This document shows positions 5,524-14,546 of a stretch of 64,000 nt of DNA, in pieces. This DNA comes from an uncultured Bacteroidia bacterium (GTDB taxonomy: Bacteria > Bacteroidota > Bacteroidia > Bacteroidales > Prolixibacteraceae). The notes under the pieces were generated by a model. It worked only from the letters and a program-made list of their open reading frames with translations. It was not told the origin of the DNA and did not search any database. The DNA lies in contig CAIUUO010000158.1 in assembly GCA_903902325.1 (NCBI GenBank), positions 1 through 64,000 on the forward strand, written 5' to 3'. Position 1 is the first letter of the stretch; each line of letters begins with the position of its first letter. The position numbers and the translations under genes were made by a program.

Positions 5524-8091
5524 TCACTCCTCCAGCAAATTCACCTCTTTGACAATGCCTGTTTTTGGATTCACACGCAGCGTTTTGATTTCATAAGGTC
5601 GGAAGTTGCCTGACCATTTGCGTTTGGCAAAGGCAAGGTCCAGATTTGCGGTCGCAGCATTGCCATTGGTTTCCACACAGCGGATAATCAGGTCTTCACC
5701 GTTCTCGGCATGTTTGACTGCCGAAATGATCACATTTTGCGCATCCACCGACAGGAAGGAGCCTGATTTCGGCAACGTTCCCCTATGGATTCCCTGGTAA
5801 ATTGGAACAAATGGCGCCATAAATTCCTCAGCAATCCTGACAAGATTGCTGTGCTGCCAGTTTCCGACGTGGGGAACCAGAAGCAAGCGGAAAGTCTGGA
5901 TACCCTGATCCTGCCACAAATGCTCCGCTTTCATGTCCAGCACTTTGGGGTTGTGGTGGGCGTAAACTGCCGAACGTGCTACTGATATGCGCAGGTCGTT
6001 TCCGGCTACGCTGTATCCGTATTTGGCATCGTTGAAAACGGCCATTCCGTAATTGCCGGAACTTCTTTTTCCGGTTACGTCAATCCAGCGCTGACCTGGA
6101 TCTTCATCCCCATTGGTTGCCCTGATGATCGTGCCATAGGAAGTTTCATACGTGGCAATGGGTGATTCAACATCTACGGGGAAGCAGAATTTCACCATTT
6201 TCAGATGTTCATGCCAGTCGAGTGTAACAGCCGCTTCCGGATTTTTGGATCCTGCGTACAAAGTCCAGTCGATGGTGAGGATTGAACTGCCATAGGTGGT
6301 GATGGAGCGGATCTTGCCGCGCAATGGTCCCTCTTCCAGTATTTTGACGGTGGCGTTTCCAAATGCGCCAATCTCCTTATTGAACGTCTTGATGTCGTGG
6401 CTCCAGGTATCGCTCGGATCGTCAATGATCACCGCCCTGCATCCGGTATCACCGCCTGCAAACAATTCCTTGCCGGTAGCCTTGTCGAATAGGCCAACAG
6501 AACCATTGTATGAAATATGAAGCTTTACAAATTCATTCTCGATGGTGTTTTCGGATACTTTCACTACTTTTTCGGGTGCTGGATTTTCACCATCCCAAAG
6601 GCGGATCTGGCGGTAGCCCATCGGAGGAACAGACATGCTTACCACCAGTTTCTTGCGGCTGCCAGCTTCGGAGGAACCCGGAGCCCACTGGTGTGGCAGC
6701 ACATTCCCCTTTTCGTCATCCACCCTGGATGACTTGTGCATGGTTCCCCAGTTGTAATCGTATTCCACATTGCCTTTCACTTCCCAGGCATGCGGATTGA
6801 AGACCAGCAGGTATTGTGAATCAGGATCCTCGGTAGAAACTTGCCATTCCAGTTTCTGAACCGCCATAAAGGTCGATTGGTGTGCAACATCGAGGGCATG
6901 GCCGTAACCTTCGCGGGCACTCTGGGAGTGGTCGAAGAGGCTGGAGCCGGCCAGACTATCGTGGAACTGCAGGAAAAGAACCTTGTGCCAGGCAGAAGTG
7001 AAGTCTTCCTTCGGATAATGGGCACCCCAGGCAGCGGAACCAATGGCAGCTACCTTTTCGGCCGTTACAAGTGCGGCTTCAGACTGACGGTTACCTTTTT
7101 TAATTTCACCTTCAGCGGTGTAACAACCCACTGCATGGTGCTGGAGGTCGTCCTTCACTACCGGAAGCTGCATCGTCTTATCTTCCCTTGCCTCCTTGAA
7201 ATAGATTTCCGGAGTACTGTAAACCACGTTAGGCGCTCCTTTTTCTTTGCGGATGTCGTTGATCGAGCTGATGTTGATTTTGGTTGCCCCACCACCGTGG
7301 TCGCCCGCACCGTAATAGGCCATCACATTCCTAAGCGGTTCCTTGGCATAGAGGTTAACGAGGCCTTCCACCTTGCTGTGAACGGAGTTGCTTTCGTTGT
7401 ACCCGAACTGGATCCGATAGGTCATTACCTTGGTACCGTCCGTACCTTCCCACCAAAAGAGGTCGGCAGGTATCGTCTTTTCTTTTAATCCGGGACGCAT
7501 GAAGATGTAATTCTCCATACCCTGCGATTTGATGATCTGCGGAAGATTGCCTGTGTGACCGAATGAATCGGGATTGTAGGCAACTTTTGCCCGGCGGCCT
7601 ATCAGGCGCTGCAACGTGAGCTGACCGTAAAGTCCCTGCCTGACCATGGCTTCCCCCGATGGGATATTCATGTCGGGTTCAACCCACCAGCCACCTACGA
7701 CATTGAAGCGGCCTTCCTCAACGCGCTTGCGGATCTCCTTCAGCATGGCCGGATCATTTTCTGCCACCCACTGGAAAAACTGGGCAGAACTGGCAGTGAA
7801 TTTGAAGTCGGGAGTTTCGTTCATACGATCCAGTGCTGACTGAAAAGTGCTGTGAACTACAGAGATGCCTTCCGACCAGTGCCAGAGCCAAACCGGATCT
7901 ATGTGTGCCTGACCGATCATGTGGACCTTGAATTTGATGGCATCCGCCGACCAGGCAAAGTCTGCCGGAAGGCCATTGGCAAAAAGATTAGTGACCGGTG
8001 CCAGGGCAAGAAGTGCAGTTCCGGAAGCTGTTTGACGGAGAAAAGTTCTGCGCGAGAATTGTGTTTTTGAATTTGAGTTGTTGCTTTCCAT
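5524..8091 (-). CDS. Alpha-mannosidase, GH38 family, Tat-exported
   Basis: Retaining alpha-mannosidase predicted to act outside the cytoplasm on alpha-mannosyl glycans. The 855-residue protein starts with a twin-arginine signal (SRRTFLRQ at 13-20 followed by a hydrophobic run). The GH38 zinc and catalytic landmarks are HIDPVWLWHW from residue 63 (zinc ligands His63 and Asp65) and YNPDSFGHTGN around Asp175, the expected nucleophile and metal ligand. A middle helical domain (about 310-420) and a large C-terminal beta-sandwich region complete the usual architecture, and the length is normal. The Tat route fits a protein that binds its metal before export. It is flanked by repeats on both sides and appears to be a single-gene unit. 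Confidence 0.93.
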   Translation of the reverse strand: MESNNSNSKTQFSRRTFLRQTASGTALLALAPVTNLFANGLPADFAWSADAIKFKVHMIGQAHIDPVWLWHWSEGISVVHSTFQSALDRMNETPDFKFTASSAQFFQWVAENDPAMLKEIRKRVEEGRFNVVGGWWVEPDMNIPSGEAMVRQGLYGQLTLQRLIGRRAKVAYNPDSFGHTGNLPQIIKSQGMENYIFMRPGLKEKTIPADLFWWEGTDGTKVMTYRIQFGYNESNSVHSKVEGLVNLYAKEPLRNVMAYYGAGDHGGGATKINISSINDIRKEKGAPNVVYSTPEIYFKEAREDKTMQLPVVKDDLQHHAVGCYTAEGEIKKGNRQSEAALVTAEKVAAIGSAAWGAHYPKEDFTSAWHKVLFLQFHDSLAGSSLFDHSQSAREGYGHALDVAHQSTFMAVQKLEWQVSTEDPDSQYLLVFNPHAWEVKGNVEYDYNWGTMHKSSRVDDEKGNVLPHQWAPGSSEAGSRKKLVVSMSVPPMGYRQIRLWDGENPAPEKVVKVSENTIENEFVKLHISYNGSVGLFDKATGKELFAGGDTGCRAVIIDDPSDTWSHDIKTFNKEIGAFGNATVKILEEGPLRGKIRSITTYGSSILTIDWTLYAGSKNPEAAVTLDWHEHLKMVKFCFPVDVESPIATYETSYGTIIRATNGDEDPGQRWIDVTGKRSSGNYGMAVFNDAKYGYSVAGNDLRISVARSAVYAHHNPKVLDMKAEHLWQDQGIQTFRLLLVPHVGNWQHSNLVRIAEEFMAPFVPIYQGIHRGTLPKSGSFLSVDAQNVIISAVKHAENGEDLIIRCVETNGNAATANLDLAFAKRKWSGNFRPYEIKTLRVNPKTGIVKEVNLLEE

Positions 8092-8180
8092 TTGTTGTTA
8101 TTAATAGTTGCTTTAAATGTAAGCAATTTCTGCTTTTTTTCAAACTTGTCCAAAATCAGGGATTGATAGAAAATCCAGAT

Positions 8181-8273
8181 TTAACCACAAAGGGCACAAA
8201 GGAAAACAAAGGCCTCAAAGGGTGAATATCCCGTTGTATTACCTTGTGTCCTTCGAGCATCCTTTGTGGTTAA
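8181..8273. repeat. CACAAAGG-type inverted repeat
   Basis: A perfect 13-bp stem pairs 8181-8193 (ttaaccacaaagg) with 8261-8273, and the inner flanks (gcacaaaggaaaaca versus ccttgtgtccttcg) continue an imperfect stem. It lies between the divergent GH38 and blaI genes, so unlike most repeats in this window it is not on the 3' side of a gene. It is the same family as 10702-10811. Confidence 0.85.
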
Positions 8274-8328
8274 ATAAGACATTTGAATCACTTTTTTTTC
8301 GTGAAAATGAGCCCTTTAATATTTTTTA

Positions 8329-8385
8329 ACTAAAACATTTAGTAAATAAACTATAATATATAGTTTTAAAACTAAAAAAAGTAGT
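8329..8385. promoter_or_regulatory. Three phased 15-bp operators upstream of blaI
   Basis: Three 15-bp sites of the form ACTA-N7-TAGT start at 8329, 8350 and 8371, exactly 21 bp apart. They read actaaaacatttagt, actataatatatagt and actaaaaaaagtagt; the first two are fully symmetric around the central three bases. Twenty-one bp is two helical turns, so all three face the same side of DNA. BlaI/MecI dimers are known to bind short dyads at their own promoters, so autoregulation is the natural reading. A near-consensus -7 box (tacattta, 8386-8393) follows the third site, and the blaI start codon is at 8411. Confidence 0.8.
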
Positions 8386-8410: not shown

Positions 8411-8785
8411 ATGAAACATCTGACAAACAGGGAAGAGGAAATCATGGATATCTTTTGGGAAAAAGGATCCTTGTATGTGAAGGAGATCGTGGATGAGCTG
8501 GCCGATCCGAAGCCGCATTACAACACCATCTCCACCATTGTCCGCGGACTCGAAGAGAAGGGATTCGTGGGTCACGAGCAATTCGGGAACACCTACCGGT
8601 ACATGGCTGTCATTTCGAGGGAGGAGTTCAGCAAGAACACCCTCAAAAACATGGTGGGCAAGTATTTCGACAAATCATACTCCTCCGTCGTTTCGATGTT
8701 CGTACAGGAGGAGAAGATTTCGCTGGAAGAGATTAAGGAGTTGATCCGTCAGGTTGAATCTGCAAAAAAAGAGCGCCATGAATGA
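8411..8785 (+). CDS. blaI: BlaI/MecI-family transcriptional repressor
   Basis: Winged-helix repressor of 124 residues, the standard family size. The N-terminal wHTH runs from LTNREEEIMDIFW to GLEEKGFVGHEQFG, with the recognition-helix region PHYNTISTIVRGLEEKG; the C-terminal helices (about 75-124) are the dimerisation part. In this family, the partner M56 membrane protease triggers inactivation of the repressor in response to a cell-envelope signal. The partner gene follows with an 8-bp overlap (ATGAATGA), which implies translational coupling. Three dyads upstream are the probable operators. No beta-lactamase gene lies nearby, so the regulon probably concerns envelope stress rather than a local resistance gene. 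Confidence 0.95.
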   Translation: MKHLTNREEEIMDIFWEKGSLYVKEIVDELADPKPHYNTISTIVRGLEEKGFVGHEQFGNTYRYMAVISREEFSKNTLKNMVGKYFDKSYSSVVSMFVQEEKISLEEIKELIRQVESAKKERHE

Positions 8786-10616
8786 ATTTATACTGTACCT
8801 GCTGAAGTCAACCATTTGTCTCAGCCTGCTTTACCTGGTCTTCAGTGCGCTGATGCGTAAGGAGTCATTCTTCGCACTCAACCGGATGCTGCTGCTCGCG
8901 ATCGTCCTGTTTTCAATGACAGTGCCGCTGGTGCCGATGCCAGAGATCGTCAGGAGTAATGTTCCTGTTCAATTGATGCCTGCCTTTACAGGAACTGAAA
9001 ACCTGATGCAGGAGTTACCTCAGACAGGAATCCCGGAACCTGTTGAAATCACAACTCCGCGTGCAGCAGTAAAACAACCTGTAGTATTTTCTTTACGACA
9101 ATTGATACAATATGGCTATCTGACCGGATTGCTGGTTACCCTGCTGATTTTGATCCGGGGTATCGTTTCCATTTTTTTACTCTTTCGTAAGGCAAGGACG
9201 GTTCGGATGGAGAATTTCCGACTTCTGATTGTGGACAAGGAGATCCCGGCCTTCTCATTTGGCCGGTTGGTTGTTATTTCAGGAGAAGATTACCGTGATC
9301 ATCAACAGGCGATGCTGGCCCACGAGCAAGCGCATATCCGGCTCAACCATTTTTTCGACCTGTTATTCCTTGAACTTGTGAAAATCATCCATTGGTTCAA
9401 TCCGGTAGTTTACCTGCTTATCCGTGACATGAAGGAGATTCATGAGTTCCAGGCAGACCAATTTAGCCTAAATAAAGGCATTAATGCAACCAAATACCAG
9501 ATGTTAATCATTCAAAAGGGAGTGGGATCGCAAAGATTTGCATTGGCAAACAGTTTCAATCATGGCCGGATCAAGAAGCGGATTGCGATGATCAACCAGC
9601 CGAAATCCGGCAAGAGATGGAGTTGGAAGTTGGTGGTTTTTCTTCCATTGGTGGCTATGATGCTAATGGCTTTTGGGAAACAACTTGAAAATGAAGTTGT
9701 TGTACAGAAACAACGGATTCCGATTAATCAAAAAAGAGCGGTGGTACAACCTATAGTGAATGGCATCAGCAGTGAACAACTTTTAGAATATGAAAACATT
9801 GTAAATAAAATAACAAATGACAAGGGGGTACCAGAAGTCAGTCAACTAACTGATACCGACAAAAAGAGATTGGAAACATTATTTTTATCTATGAACAAGG
9901 AGCAAAGATCAGCCCAAATGGTGATATTCATTCCAAAACCTCCACCTCTACCCAATTCTGTTCCTACACCAGAACAAATGAAAACCTGGGAAGATTCAAT
10001 GATTTATGGTATATGGATCAATGATAAAAGAGTAAATAATTCAGATTTTAAAAAGTATAAGAATACAGACTTTGCAGAGGTTTTTGTTAGTAAACTTGAA
10101 AAGAATGCATTAAATTATGGGAAACACTATTATCAAGTTAATTTAATGACGAATGAATATTATGCAAACTTTCTCAAACGAATGGAATTGGCAGATAAAT
10201 ATTGGATCGCTTCACGGAAGAAAAAAGAAACGACGCAGCTGATATCACCATCGCCTCAATTGAGACTAGAACAGAAAATTGCAAAGGATTCGCTTTCAAT
10301 CAGGACAGAGAATAGCGAAAATGTTGAAATCTTTAGTGCTGATAAAGTTGTATATGATAGCAAAAAGCCTTCAGTAATATATCTTTATAATGCGGAATTA
10401 AGGTACAAGGATACAAAGTTAACTGGGGACTATATAAGATTTAACAAAGACAGCAACCTTGTCGTTGCAACCGGAAGACGGGACTCAACGGGAAATATGG
10501 TAGGAAAACCAGTTTTTACCCAAGGCAAGCAGGAGTTTTCCGCTGCTGAGATAAGATTCAATTTCAAAACAAAGAAGGGTGTCATCTTTGACAACGATAA
10601 ATCCACCAAATTCTAA
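8778..10616 (+). CDS. M56 (BlaR1/MecR1-like) sensor protease with OstA-like C-terminal domain
   Basis: Integral-membrane zinc protease expected to sense an envelope signal and relieve BlaI repression. I use the ATG at 8778 (612 residues), which overlaps the blaI stop; a TTG at 8754 would add 8 residues. Membrane helices lie near 5-25, 35-53, 112-136 and 288-303. The protease site is HEQAH (182-186) with the downstream acidic ligand region KEIHEFQAD (219-227). After residue about 310 the sequence is extracytoplasmic, more AT-rich, and has no BlaR1 penicillin-binding domain. Residues about 513-612 resemble the N-terminal OstA/LptA-like module of Bacteroidota LptD proteins: strands such as YLYNAELRYKDTKLTGDYI, then GRRDSTGNMVGKPVFTQG and FNFKTKKGVIFDN. 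The fusion assignment is by eye. Confidence 0.88.
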   Translation: MNEFILYLLKSTICLSLLYLVFSALMRKESFFALNRMLLLAIVLFSMTVPLVPMPEIVRSNVPVQLMPAFTGTENLMQELPQTGIPEPVEITTPRAAVKQPVVFSLRQLIQYGYLTGLLVTLLILIRGIVSIFLLFRKARTVRMENFRLLIVDKEIPAFSFGRLVVISGEDYRDHQQAMLAHEQAHIRLNHFFDLLFLELVKIIHWFNPVVYLLIRDMKEIHEFQADQFSLNKGINATKYQMLIIQKGVGSQRFALANSFNHGRIKKRIAMINQPKSGKRWSWKLVVFLPLVAMMLMAFGKQLENEVVVQKQRIPINQKRAVVQPIVNGISSEQLLEYENIVNKITNDKGVPEVSQLTDTDKKRLETLFLSMNKEQRSAQMVIFIPKPPPLPNSVPTPEQMKTWEDSMIYGIWINDKRVNNSDFKKYKNTDFAEVFVSKLEKNALNYGKHYYQVNLMTNEYYANFLKRMELADKYWIASRKKKETTQLISPSPQLRLEQKIAKDSLSIRTENSENVEIFSADKVVYDSKKPSVIYLYNAELRYKDTKLTGDYIRFNKDSNLVVATGRRDSTGNMVGKPVFTQGKQEFSAAEIRFNFKTKKGVIFDNDKSTKF

Positions 10617-10701: not shown

Positions 10702-10811
10702 TTTTACCACAAAGGACCCAAAGGAAAACACGAAGGTCTCAAAGGTTGAATGTTCCGCTTTTACTTTTACTTTGTGTCCTTCTTTCATCCTTTGTGCCCT
10801 TTGTGGTAAAA
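10702..10811. repeat. CACAAAGG-type inverted repeat in a 450-bp gap
   Basis: A perfect 14-bp stem pairs 10702-10715 (ttttaccacaaagg) with 10798-10811; the inside flanks keep the same words (cacgaaggtctcaaagg versus tttgtgtccttctttcatcc). It is the same family as 8181-8273. The gap 10617-11069 otherwise contains no convincing gene; from about 10830 to 11069 it is AT-rich leader sequence for the next gene without a TAnnTTTG element that I would trust. Confidence 0.85.
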
Positions 10812-11069: not shown

Positions 11070-14000
11070 ATGGCAATTATCGTAGCGATCCGGCACAATA
11101 CCTCCTACCAGTATGATCACCTGATCAACATGGGGCCCCACGTCATAAGGCTGAAACCCGCTCCGCACAGCCGGACAAAGATTCACTCCTATTCGCTGGA
11201 TATTGAACCCAAAGAACATTTCATCAACTGGCAGCAGGATTCGTTCGGCAACTATCTGGCCCGCGTGGTGATGCAGGACAAGGTAAAGGAATTCAAAGTG
11301 GCCGTGGAGGTTGTTGCAGAAATGACTGTCATCAACCCTTTCGATTTTTTCGTGGAGGAATATGCGGATAAGTTTCCCTTTCAATATGAAGACCAGGACG
11401 TCAAGGAGCTCGCACCCTATTTCGAAATCATCGAAAAGGGTCCTTTGCTCCTGGAATGGATCAGAAAAGTTGAAAAATTCAAGGGTCTCAACATCGTCGA
11501 CTTCCTGGTCGCCGTGAATCAGGAGCTCAACAGGGAGATCAACTATACGGTCAGGATGGAGCCAGGGGTCTTCACCTGCGAGGAGTCGCTGCAGAAAAAG
11601 CTGGGCTCCTGCCGCGATTCGGCCTGGTTACTTGTACAAACCATGCGGCATCTGGGTCTGGCCGCCCGCTTCGTTTCGGGTTACCTGGTGCAGTTGAAAG
11701 CCGACCAAAAGGCCATCGACGGCCCATCCGGTACCGAAAAGGATTTTACGGATTTACATGCCTGGTGCGAAGTCTATATTCCAGGCGCCGGCTGGATCGG
11801 TCTGGATCCGACTTCCGGATTACTGGCTGGAGAGGGACATATCCCTTTGTGCTGTACGCCGGCACCTTCGAGCGCCGCGCCTATTTCGGGTGCGATTGAG
11901 GCTTGCGAAGTGGAATTCTTCCACAGCAATGAAGTAATCAGGATCCATGAGGATCCGCGCGTAACGAAGCCTTACAGCGATCAGCAATGGGCGGAGATCA
12001 TGGCGCTTGGAGATCAGGTCGATAAGAAACTGGAAGCCGGAGATGCCAGGCTGACCATGGGTGGCGAACCCACTTTTGTTTCGATCGACGACATGGAGTC
12101 GGATCAATGGAATACCGCTTACGATGGGAAGGAGAAACAGCAACTGGCGAACAAATTGATCCATAAACTGAGCGAAAATTTTGGCAAGGGCGGCTTGTTC
12201 CACTACGGTCAGGGCAAATGGTATCCGGGTGAACCCACTCCGCGCTGGCAGATGGCACTCTACTGGCGGAAAGACGGAAAACCTGTCTGGAAGGAGAAAA
12301 ATTGGCTGGCCGATTTCAGCATGGATTACCAGTACACCTTCGAAGATGCCGGAAAATTCATGGCTCATCTGGCCAAATGGCTTGGAGTGGCTGAAAACAA
12401 CATCACACCCGGTTACGAAGATGCCTTTTATTACCTGTGGACAGAGCGCAAACTTCCTGTAAATATCGATCCTCACAACATCGATCTAAAAGAATCTCTC
12501 GAACGAAAAACACTGATGGAGCAACTGGACCGGGGCATGGAGCATCCAGCGGGTTTTGTGCTTCCCTTGCAATGGGCTTACCAAAAAAACAGCTGGATCA
12601 GTTGCCCCTGGGAGTTTCGGGGCGGCAAGATGATGCTGATACCCGGCAATTCACAGATGGGTTACAGGTTGCCGCTCGATTCCCTTCCGCACGTGCCAGA
12701 ATCTAAACGTCCCAGGCCCATTGAACGCAGTCCGTTTGAAGATACTGCACCACTTGCCGATTTTCATGCCCTGGTACAGGAACGGTACAATGCAATGCCT
12801 GACTATTCAATTCCCGAAGAGATGCTCTTTCCGAAAGAATATGATCAAACTGATCCTGAAGAGGCAAAAAAGAACAAAAACAAGCATCTCCCTTTCCAGG
12901 AGGAGAAGGAGAAAAAACAAGAGTACAAGCCACTTTATGACCTGTTCACGATACGGACGGCATTGGTTTCAGAAATACGTGACGGAAAGATCCATCTCTT
13001 CCTTCCACCCTGTGATATGATTGAGCATTACCTGGATCTGCTGGCAGCCATCGAGCTGACTGCTTCGGAATTGAAGATACCGGTCGTGGTGGAAGGTTAT
13101 GCTCCGCCAACTGACAAGCGGATTGAAAAGTTGATGGTGACTCCAGACCCCGGAGTGATTGAGGTGAACATCCATCCGGCGAAATCCTGGAAAGAGGTGG
13201 TCAACAACTACAATATCCTCTTCGAATCTGCGCTGGAAAGCCGGCTCGGATCGGAAAAATTCATGCTCGACGGAAAACACACGGGTACCGGCGGCGGGAA
13301 CCACATCACCCTTGGCGGTGTGACACCATCCGATTCGCCTTTGCTGCGCAGGCCAGATCTGTTGCGGAGTATGCTGGCTTTCTGGCAGCACCATCCCGGA
13401 TTGTCCTACCTGTTTTCCACGGCCTTTGTGGGATCGACCAGCCAGGCGCCGCGGGTGGATGAAGGCAGACAGGAAATGTTGTACGAACTTGAGATTGCCT
13501 TTGCCCAGATTCCCGATCCGGGAGCGGGTGAGGTACCTTTCTGGCTTGTTGACAGGCTTTTCAGAAACCTGCTGATCGACCTGACGGGAAACACGCACCG
13601 GGCAGAGTTTTGCATCGACAAGCTTTATTCTCCCGATTCATCTACCGGAAGGCTGGGCATTCTGGAGTTGCGCGGTTTCGATATGCCGCCCAACAAACAG
13701 ATGTGCCTCGTTCAGTTGCTGCTGATCAGGACGCTCGTATCGTGGTTCTGGGAGAAACCCTACAAAGGCAAGCTCGTTCGCTGGGGAACGGAATTGCACG
13801 ACAAATTCCTGACCCATCATTTCGTACGTGAGGACCTGAAAGATGTGGTCAGTCAGCTGAATGAGGCGGGATATATCTTCGACATCAACTGGCTGGAACC
13901 GTTTTTTGAATTCAGGTTTCCGCACATCGGTCGGGTAAAATTCAAGGATGTTGAGCTCAGCCTGCGTTCGGCCATTGAGCCGTGGAATGTGCTGGGGGAG

Positions 14001-14546
14001 GAAATGTCTAGTTCAGGAACGGCCCGCTTTGTAGATTCCTCGGTAGAAAGGATTGAGGTAAAGGCGATAGGATTGACAGGTGAGCGGTATGCAGTTTTGT
14101 GCAATGGCATGCGGATTCCGATGGCCAATACGGGTACGAAAGGCGAGTACGTGGCATCCGTCAGGTACCGGGCATGGCAACCTCCATCTGCCTTGCATCC
14201 CAACCTGGGCGTCGATACGCCACTCGTGCTTGATATTTTTGATCTGTGGACAGGCAAATCGGTGGCGGGTTGTACCTACCATGTGTTCCATCCCGGAGGA
14301 AGATCCTACGATTCCTTTCCTGTCAATAGTTTCGAGGCGGAAGGCAGGCGTGTCTCCAGGTTTTACAATGAGAACCACACGCAGGGCGTATTGACACCCA
14401 AAGAAGAGGTTAGCAAGGAGATTCGGAGGTATATTGTAGAATTAGAATCTGAAACCAATCAGAGAGTCGTGCTTTCCCCGAAAATCATCGAACCGGATCC
14501 TGAATATCCGCATACCTTCGATCTTCGCAAGTACAAATTGAAATAG
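11070..14546 (+). CDS. Transglutaminase-like / DUF2126 fusion protein
   Basis: Large cytoplasmic protein of 1158 residues, the usual size of this family. Residues about 1-290 form a bacterial transglutaminase-like cysteine-hydrolase domain: Cys181 in GSCRDSAW, His230 in DLHAWCEVY and Asp246 in GLDPTSG give a complete catalytic triad. The remainder is DUF2126. It carries LTMGGEPTFVSIDD near 330 and the GS-like glycine-rich stretch TGTGGGNHITLGG near 740, consistent with the proposal that DUF2126 is an amide-forming ligase related to glutamine synthetase. It is transcribed toward the Anbu/transglutaminase/alpha-E/ATP-grasp genes at 14702-18677, its usual genomic partners. The predicted role is synthesis or trimming of a peptide or amide product; the actual substrate is unknown. 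Confidence 0.92.
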   Translation: MAIIVAIRHNTSYQYDHLINMGPHVIRLKPAPHSRTKIHSYSLDIEPKEHFINWQQDSFGNYLARVVMQDKVKEFKVAVEVVAEMTVINPFDFFVEEYADKFPFQYEDQDVKELAPYFEIIEKGPLLLEWIRKVEKFKGLNIVDFLVAVNQELNREINYTVRMEPGVFTCEESLQKKLGSCRDSAWLLVQTMRHLGLAARFVSGYLVQLKADQKAIDGPSGTEKDFTDLHAWCEVYIPGAGWIGLDPTSGLLAGEGHIPLCCTPAPSSAAPISGAIEACEVEFFHSNEVIRIHEDPRVTKPYSDQQWAEIMALGDQVDKKLEAGDARLTMGGEPTFVSIDDMESDQWNTAYDGKEKQQLANKLIHKLSENFGKGGLFHYGQGKWYPGEPTPRWQMALYWRKDGKPVWKEKNWLADFSMDYQYTFEDAGKFMAHLAKWLGVAENNITPGYEDAFYYLWTERKLPVNIDPHNIDLKESLERKTLMEQLDRGMEHPAGFVLPLQWAYQKNSWISCPWEFRGGKMMLIPGNSQMGYRLPLDSLPHVPESKRPRPIERSPFEDTAPLADFHALVQERYNAMPDYSIPEEMLFPKEYDQTDPEEAKKNKNKHLPFQEEKEKKQEYKPLYDLFTIRTALVSEIRDGKIHLFLPPCDMIEHYLDLLAAIELTASELKIPVVVEGYAPPTDKRIEKLMVTPDPGVIEVNIHPAKSWKEVVNNYNILFESALESRLGSEKFMLDGKHTGTGGGNHITLGGVTPSDSPLLRRPDLLRSMLAFWQHHPGLSYLFSTAFVGSTSQAPRVDEGRQEMLYELEIAFAQIPDPGAGEVPFWLVDRLFRNLLIDLTGNTHRAEFCIDKLYSPDSSTGRLGILELRGFDMPPNKQMCLVQLLLIRTLVSWFWEKPYKGKLVRWGTELHDKFLTHHFVREDLKDVVSQLNEAGYIFDINWLEPFFEFRFPHIGRVKFKDVELSLRSAIEPWNVLGEEMSSSGTARFVDSSVERIEVKAIGLTGERYAVLCNGMRIPMANTGTKGEYVASVRYRAWQPPSALHPNLGVDTPLVLDIFDLWTGKSVAGCTYHVFHPGGRSYDSFPVNSFEAEGRRVSRFYNENHTQGVLTPKEEVSKEIRRYIVELESETNQRVVLSPKIIEPDPEYPHTFDLRKYKLK

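Follow-up and report, generated by a model that had tools for sequence, protein, structure and literature searches.

How Bacteroidota detect faults in the assembly of their outer membrane is, to our knowledge, poorly known. The locus described here raises a related question, namely, what a membrane protease of the BlaR1 type might sense when its C-terminus resembles a piece of LptD. The window, meaning the whole analyzed stretch of 64,000 nucleotides, belongs to genome G000, and the comparison set comprised 8 genomes of its genus and 140 of its family. A blaI-type repressor gene (8411..8785, + strand; 124 aa; Pfam Penicillinase_R 112.9 bits, E 1.4e-32) is followed by an M56 (BlaR1-type) sensor protease gene (8778..10616, + strand; 612 aa; Peptidase_M56 43.2 bits, cut-off 31), a single open frame running from the ATG at 8778 to the stop codon at 10614-10616. 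Its first 8 bp overlap the end of blaI, in agreement with the coupling to BlaI proposed in a preliminary description of this DNA. The pair lies between genes for a GH38 alpha-mannosidase (5524-8091, - strand) and a DUF2126/transglutaminase protein (11070-14546, + strand), with no LPS gene and no beta-lactamase among the direct neighbors and no Rfam match between 7900 and 11200. Similar inverted repeats of the ACCACAAAGG...CCTTTGTGGT type, with arms of 24-30 nt lying ~65 nt apart, flank the pair at 8164-8290 and 10702-10811 and are perhaps a small mobile repeat.

The M56 protein can be divided into three parts. The membrane-protease part (residues 1-305; 8778..9692, + strand), delimited by hydropathy, model helices and orthologue identity, is 53-59% identical to its orthologues. 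Hydropathy gives transmembrane (TM) candidates at residues 4-22, 37-55, 108-126, and 285-303, also present as helices in the low-confidence full-length model, and places the protease between TM3 and TM4; a fifth maximum, 197-215, falls inside the protease part. The HEQAH (HExxH) zinc motif at residues 182-186 (9321..9335, + strand) is invariant across the three fusions described below. If the BlaR1 layout holds, with the orientation taken from BlaR1, residues 306-612 would be extracytoplasmic. The middle region (residues 306-511; 9693..10310, + strand) contains a proline-rich stretch and low-confidence helices and is hardly conserved, the window fusion sharing 10-19% identity with the other two over residues 306-492; by eye, the middle regions of G002, G003, and G004 are alike and that of the window genome differs. 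The C-terminus is formed by an LptD N-terminal (OstA/LptA) beta-jellyroll module (residues 512-612; 10311..10613, + strand), assigned from homology, Pfam and models, within which the stretch 10318-10613 corresponds to residues 514-612.

The preliminary description had placed an OstA/LptA-like domain at residues ~513-612, and both profile and pairwise comparisons support it. On the last 120 residues alone, LptD_N (PF03968) scores 24.2 bits (E 4.1e-5), above the gathering score of 20.4. Within the whole M56 protein the score drops to 18.1 bits, under the cut-off, and routine annotation would therefore overlook the module. NCBIfam LptA also matches the C-terminus with an E of 2.6e-7, far under its equivalog cut-off. 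The LptD of the same genome aligns to residues 497-604 with 44% identity (E 7.1e-25), and LptD proteins from six genomes of the genus, this one included, are 46-53% identical to the module, sharing with it the words DSTG..VGKPV and NF.TKKG (NFKTKKG in the window).

The predicted fold agrees with this assignment. AlphaFold2, with an alignment of 55 sequences (54 of 80 loci plus the window domain), predicts an all-beta OstA domain of 11 strands with a pLDDT of 81 and a pTM of 0.71. The full-length model (29 sequences, overall pLDDT 60.8) also has a confident domain at residues ~512-612, mostly with pLDDT >90, next to a poorly predicted middle region. LptD rows were present in the alignments of both models and helped the fold prediction; judged on sequence, the LptD homology stands without them. 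The top VIA-align match of the domain model is LptA (2r19), with a Z of 12.1 and an rmsd of 2.2 over 90 residues, as expected for the beta-jellyroll anticipated earlier. Lpt proteins (LptA, LptH, LptC, LptD, LptB2FG) are named in 30 of the best 32 PDB rows; the other two, 4q35 and 5x5y, have plain titles and are presumably LptDE and LptB2FG. LptC is matched with a Z of 9.9. Foldseek (best E 2.9e-3, probability 1.00) agrees with VIA-align. Neither of the outcomes that would have spoken against the preliminary description, a lack of significant OstA/LptA matches or a fold other than a beta-jellyroll, was observed. The whole-LptD architecture is absent, as the window protein stops at residue 612 without an outer-membrane barrel.

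A chance resemblance to LptD was rejected given the E value against the genome's own LptD, the LptA fold match, and the selection and conserved columns reported below. An assembly artefact or a frame-shifted LptD was also rejected, since the frame ends naturally and the fusion recurs, as the preliminary description had thought worth checking, in G003 and G002, whose diverged M56 parts are 53-57% identical to that of the window.

That description had also remarked on a missing penicillin sensor. No penicillin-binding (class-D-like) domain was found in the window M56 with Pfam or NCBIfam at E values up to 1, and the match of the generic BlaR1 model is confined to residues 184-331; we therefore do not class the protein as BlaR1 proper. 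The absence stands, but it is not what makes this protein odd, because TonB_C is carried by 43 of 63 M56 proteins surveyed in relatives (3 of 66 dropped as duplicates; frames cut by locus ends make all of these counts lower bounds). Other Pfam domains in the same survey are CarbopepD_reg_2 (15), Plug (10), ExbD (2), and POTRA, GldM, and LptD_N (1 each). The oddity is the OstA module itself, which has no counterpart in the close orthologues, where TonB_C occupies that place.

The OstA module is under purifying selection. Between G000 and G003, the differences at codon positions 1/2/3 are.29/.18/.57 in the module and.25/.14/.52 in the protease part, compared to a near-neutral.58/.59/.68 in the middle region, and amino acid identity is 53%, 68%, and 19%, respectively. 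The third-position excess in the module is significant against both G003 (p 1.2e-7) and G002 (p 2.6e-7), and that in the middle region is marginal (p 0.044). Among the 23 columns conserved in LptD (>=80% of rows), the window module retains 18 and that of G003 retains 17.

Within the genus, the M56-OstA fusion is present in three of 8 genomes (G000, G003, and G002). In G004 and G001 the orthologue of the M56 protein terminates in TonB_C, for which the G001 match is weak (E 0.012), and the remaining three genomes have no close orthologue. The OstA query found a match in 132 of the 140 family genomes. The matches examined are LptD except for the three fusions; among them, no fusion was seen in the 132 family genomes outside the genus. 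Apart from some short frames, the matches listed have the length of LptD frames, and an M56-OstA protein of ~900 aa might go unnoticed in this size range. In nine short frames (G021, G026, G162, G138, G104, G128, G022, G085, and G124) the match lies near the N-terminus; they are LptD-like, mostly cut at contig ends, and without M56. An M56 profile search of 30 family OstA loci retrieved only two known fusions, and in a wider contig search 79 of the best 80 matches (of 196) lacked M56, JAPLDT010000011.1 being the G003 fusion. For the best 30 M56 loci phylum-wide, the listing covered 25 of 31 families and contained neither LptD_N nor POTRA. Pairwise similarity was the basis for calling the fusions in G002 and G003, as neither gives a Pfam LptD_N match at E values up to 0.1, and the G002 copy is strongly diverged (32-37% identity, branch 1.75).

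Two trees bear on the origin of the module. In the OstA tree (57 rows, 108 columns), the window and G003 copies are firmly joined (100/97), the fused trio is weakly grouped (80/30), and the fused copies group with the LptD of the genus (90/85) inside a 17-row clade with named Prolixibacteraceae (100/98). In the M56 tree (32 of 63 rows), the three OstA-bearers are scattered among TonB_C orthologues, and the AU test does not reject a common clade for them (p 0.128). The simplest reading is a single capture from LptD within the genus, followed by swapping or loss of C-terminal ends.

Upstream of blaI, three tandem palindromes ACTA-N7-TAGT (8329-8343, 8350-8364, and 8371-8385, together 8329..8385) are spaced with a 21-bp period and form a predicted BlaI operator. 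They are the only exact matches in the 64 kb, against 0.30 expected, and none of 100 shuffles reached three; a reversed-pattern control (283 sites/strand) is a poor control for a palindrome and was set aside in favor of the shuffles. The tandem palindrome is found at one place each in the five of 8 genus genomes with this blaI-M56 pair and is absent from the other three. It precedes blaI in four of these five; the G003 copy is located close to the end of a different contig (C95). In G003, the triple operator (L206, G003:C95:1-400) is therefore separated from blaI (L037:1-230) by a contig break. Repeat-like sequence occurs close to the end of each of the two contigs, which suggests that the contigs adjoin, possibly with a repeat array between operator and blaI. 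The palindromes are probably BlaI operators, and BlaI probably controls its own operon.

Single ACTA-N7-TAGT sites occur in the genome at chance level, with 18 in 4.79 Mb including the three of the operon. Examination of 12 of the other 15 sites, mostly inside frames, yielded neither a wider regulon nor an LPS or lpt gene preceded by a predicted operator, and the motif was not found in the examined stretch before lptD. One site (L201:1501-1515; G000:C202:43441-43455) lies 93 bp before a gene that we take to be lipid A acyltransferase-like; it is not conserved in the 6 congeners examined and is probably due to chance.

We are practically certain of the homology and fold, of the selection that maintains the module, of its repeated occurrence within the genus, of BlaI as its partner, and of the conserved tandem palindrome before blaI.

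The OstA fusion does not stand alone, as pieces of other outer-membrane machines are likewise attached to the M56-BlaI chassis. A second M56 protein of the window genome (G000:C203:307-1806, L001; 500 aa) ends in two POTRA domains (E 4.5e-18), which match Bacteroidota-type BamA structures (9hj3 and 9hiv, E 1.3e-18) and align with 31% identity to residues 335-490 of the genome's own BamA, just before the barrel. Such M56-POTRA proteins were found in at least 10 of the 140 family genomes (loci L001, L236-L243, and L245), every one beside blaI, with intact frames in nine (G000, G121, G136, G135, G157, G101, G099, G092, and G086) and a frame cut by the contig end in G128. The match in G135 crosses two stop codons; its 493-aa frame nevertheless contains both parts. 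In G000 and members of the G121 type blaI is located downstream, whereas G157, G101, and others have it upstream. Larger frames with Plug and POTRA were observed in G062 (L244) and G066 (L246), the latter also with TonB_C and cut at the contig start. Both frames are cut and perhaps headed by M56; G062 is probably an M56-Plug-POTRA protein, its M56 being matched by a custom profile only. A third M56 protein of the window genome carries TonB_C, Plug, and CarboxypepD_reg, and an M56 protein of G031 (L233:743-2248, G031:C442), with blaI upstream, carries GldM_3rd (E 9e-16) and GldM_4th (E 2.8e-17), domains that belong to type 9 secretion/gliding. The linker comprises ~200 residues in the window M56 and ~20-30 in the G000 POTRA and GldM proteins; because these lengths differ so greatly, the proteins cannot all reach the outer membrane by one common geometry. 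We also observed three tandem M56 genes in G059 (G059:C11, L216:1811-7855); their C-terminal ends differ, and two of the three have almost the same protease part. The 30 phylum-wide M56 loci (L265-L294) showed HEAT repeats (2), DUF4097 (2, among them L265), and peptidase M23 (1) at E values up to 0.01.

What the OstA module would do can be approached from the E. coli Lpt bridge, which consists of jellyrolls joined C-to-N and ends in the periplasmic domain of LptD (PMC8727689). The same paper states that a correctly placed LptD jellyroll is required to recruit LptA, that LptA is unstable if the bridge is unassembled, so that its stability reports bridge assembly, and that impaired transport causes LPS to accumulate at the inner membrane (PMC8727689). 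For BlaR1, PMC7593790 describes a signal received by the outer domain, which leads through the cytoplasmic protease to BlaI cleavage. The window genome encodes a separate OstA_2/LptA-like protein (E 1e-42) besides LptD. We propose that the sensor of the M56 protein is a barrel-less copy of the N-terminal jellyroll of the cell's own LptD, which would be held in the periplasm by TM4 and the linker. There it could take the free edge of LptA, as the LptD jellyroll does, or LPS-laden bridge pieces; it would compete with LptD for LptA, or capture such pieces when LptD is missing or jammed. A broken, blocked or overloaded Lpt bridge would then leave this decoy occupied, and occupancy would be signaled via TM4 to the cytoplasmic M56 protease, which would cut BlaI and free the operator.

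This chain as a whole, in which the M56-BlaI pair senses the Lpt machine through an LptD-type module, is a tentative reading that we hold to be plausible while stopping just short of calling it probable. In its favor are the homology to the genome's own LptD together with the Lpt fold, the constraint on the module and its retained columns next to a near-neutral middle region, the place of the fused copies beside genus LptD in the tree, the presence of both OstA_2 and LptD in the genome, the palindromes in all five genomes with the blaI-M56 pair, the parallel fusions with BamA POTRA and GldM domains, and the E. coli findings on the C-to-N bridge, on LptA recruitment by the LptD jellyroll, and on LptA stability (PMC8727689). 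It is weakened by the lack of an LPS or lpt gene behind the predicted operator at the sites covered, by the scatter of the OstA-bearers in the M56 tree, by the shortness of the module, which lacks the rest of LptD, and by the divergence of the G002 copy. The module is also not essential to the circuit, since TonB_C takes its place in close orthologues that share the operator and BlaI.

Some of these observations could be explained differently. The OstA end might be a passive, replaceable tail acquired through recombination, with the membrane part or the middle region doing the sensing; the TonB_C or TonB_C-like tails of genus orthologues that share the BlaI and operator are consistent with this, as is the failure of the OstA-bearers to form one clade. 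A passive tail sits poorly with purifying selection that acts on the module and hardly on the middle region (G000 versus G003), with the retention of 18 of the 23 LptD-conserved columns, and with the outer-membrane machine modules borne by other M56 proteins, and we consider it unlikely. The layout of a jellyroll on an inner-membrane protein also resembles that of LptC, which the model matches in fold, and the protein could accordingly be a working part of LPS transport, an LptC-like docking point at the inner membrane for which M56 is a mere anchor. An intact M56 domain with HEQAH, the blaI overlap, and the operator all speak against this, and an occurrence in three of 8 genomes is too patchy for an essential component, making such a role very improbable.

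A further alternative keeps the module as the sensor and changes its ligand: the jellyroll groove would bind LPS, or another lipid, directly, and the signal would come from LPS piling up at the inner membrane, not from the condition of LptA or of the bridge. PMC8727689 describes Lpt jellyrolls as forming a hydrophobic lumen that shields the acyl chains of LPS, and the accumulation upon compromised transport that it reports would supply such a signal; the matches of the OstA model to LptA, LptC, and LptD fit as well. Against this, the closest parallel is the M56-BamA POTRA protein, and POTRA is a protein-docking rather than a lipid-binding module, which favors docking to the machine. We judge direct binding of LPS improbable and continue to prefer sensing of the Lpt bridge through a decoy module.

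If this reading is extended to the Bacteroidales M56-BlaI family, represented here by a lineage that its named relatives place in the Prolixibacteraceae, its members would be envelope surveillance systems, each using as bait a copy, barrel-less or partial, of the periplasmic piece of one outer-membrane machine, with occupancy reporting whether that machine is assembled or jammed. The LptD jellyroll would serve to watch LPS export, BamA POTRA4-5 the assembly of barrels, GldM domains type 9 secretion/gliding, and TonB_C and plug domains TonB-dependent uptake. We put this generalization forward as a possibility that is still rather doubtful. Should the sensor be a copy of a machine part, the protease-repressor pair would give a testable route in which the bait names the watched machine, and the recurrence of Lpt, Bam, GldM, and TonB pieces turns a lone odd fusion into a possible general rule. 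The pattern suggests that bacteria may watch their outer-membrane machines with borrowed parts, a beta-lactam-type signaling chassis being re-aimed through domain capture.

Publications on M56 with LptD or OstA yielded no M56-OstA/LptD fusion, and no M56-POTRA fusion was found among the matches listed. The literature searched for GldM with BlaR1 gave no publication, and that on BlaR1/M56 in Bacteroidetes and on M56 with TonB contained nothing on these fusions. Compared to the BlaR1/MecR1-BlaI/MecI systems (MEROPS M56), the window pair shares the HExxH membrane protease, the adjacent BlaI-type repressor, and the palindromes before the repressor gene; its four predicted TM segments, with the protease before the last of them, would fit the BlaR1 layout, in which case the C-terminus would be extracytoplasmic. 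It differs in having an LptD-type jellyroll in place of the class-D-beta-lactamase-like penicillin sensor and neighbors without a beta-lactamase.

Its module is 44-53% identical to genus LptD (PF03968 LptD_N; Bacteroidota) and has the same fold and words, but it lacks the barrel and the remainder of LptD and sits on a polytopic membrane protease rather than in the outer-membrane translocon. The same M56-BlaI chassis is found in Bacteroidota M56 proteins that end in TonB_C, Plug or CarboxypepD_reg, whereas the sensor module of the window protein comes from LptD and not from TonB or TonB-dependent receptors. The M56-POTRA proteins of the window genome and of 9 other family genomes are alike in their blaI neighbor and in placing a barrel-proximal periplasmic part at the C-terminus; they differ in using the last two POTRA domains of BamA, in their short linker, in the downstream blaI of G000, and in their occurrence in more genera. 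The M56-BlaI chassis is already known, and the LptD-type sensor class is new.
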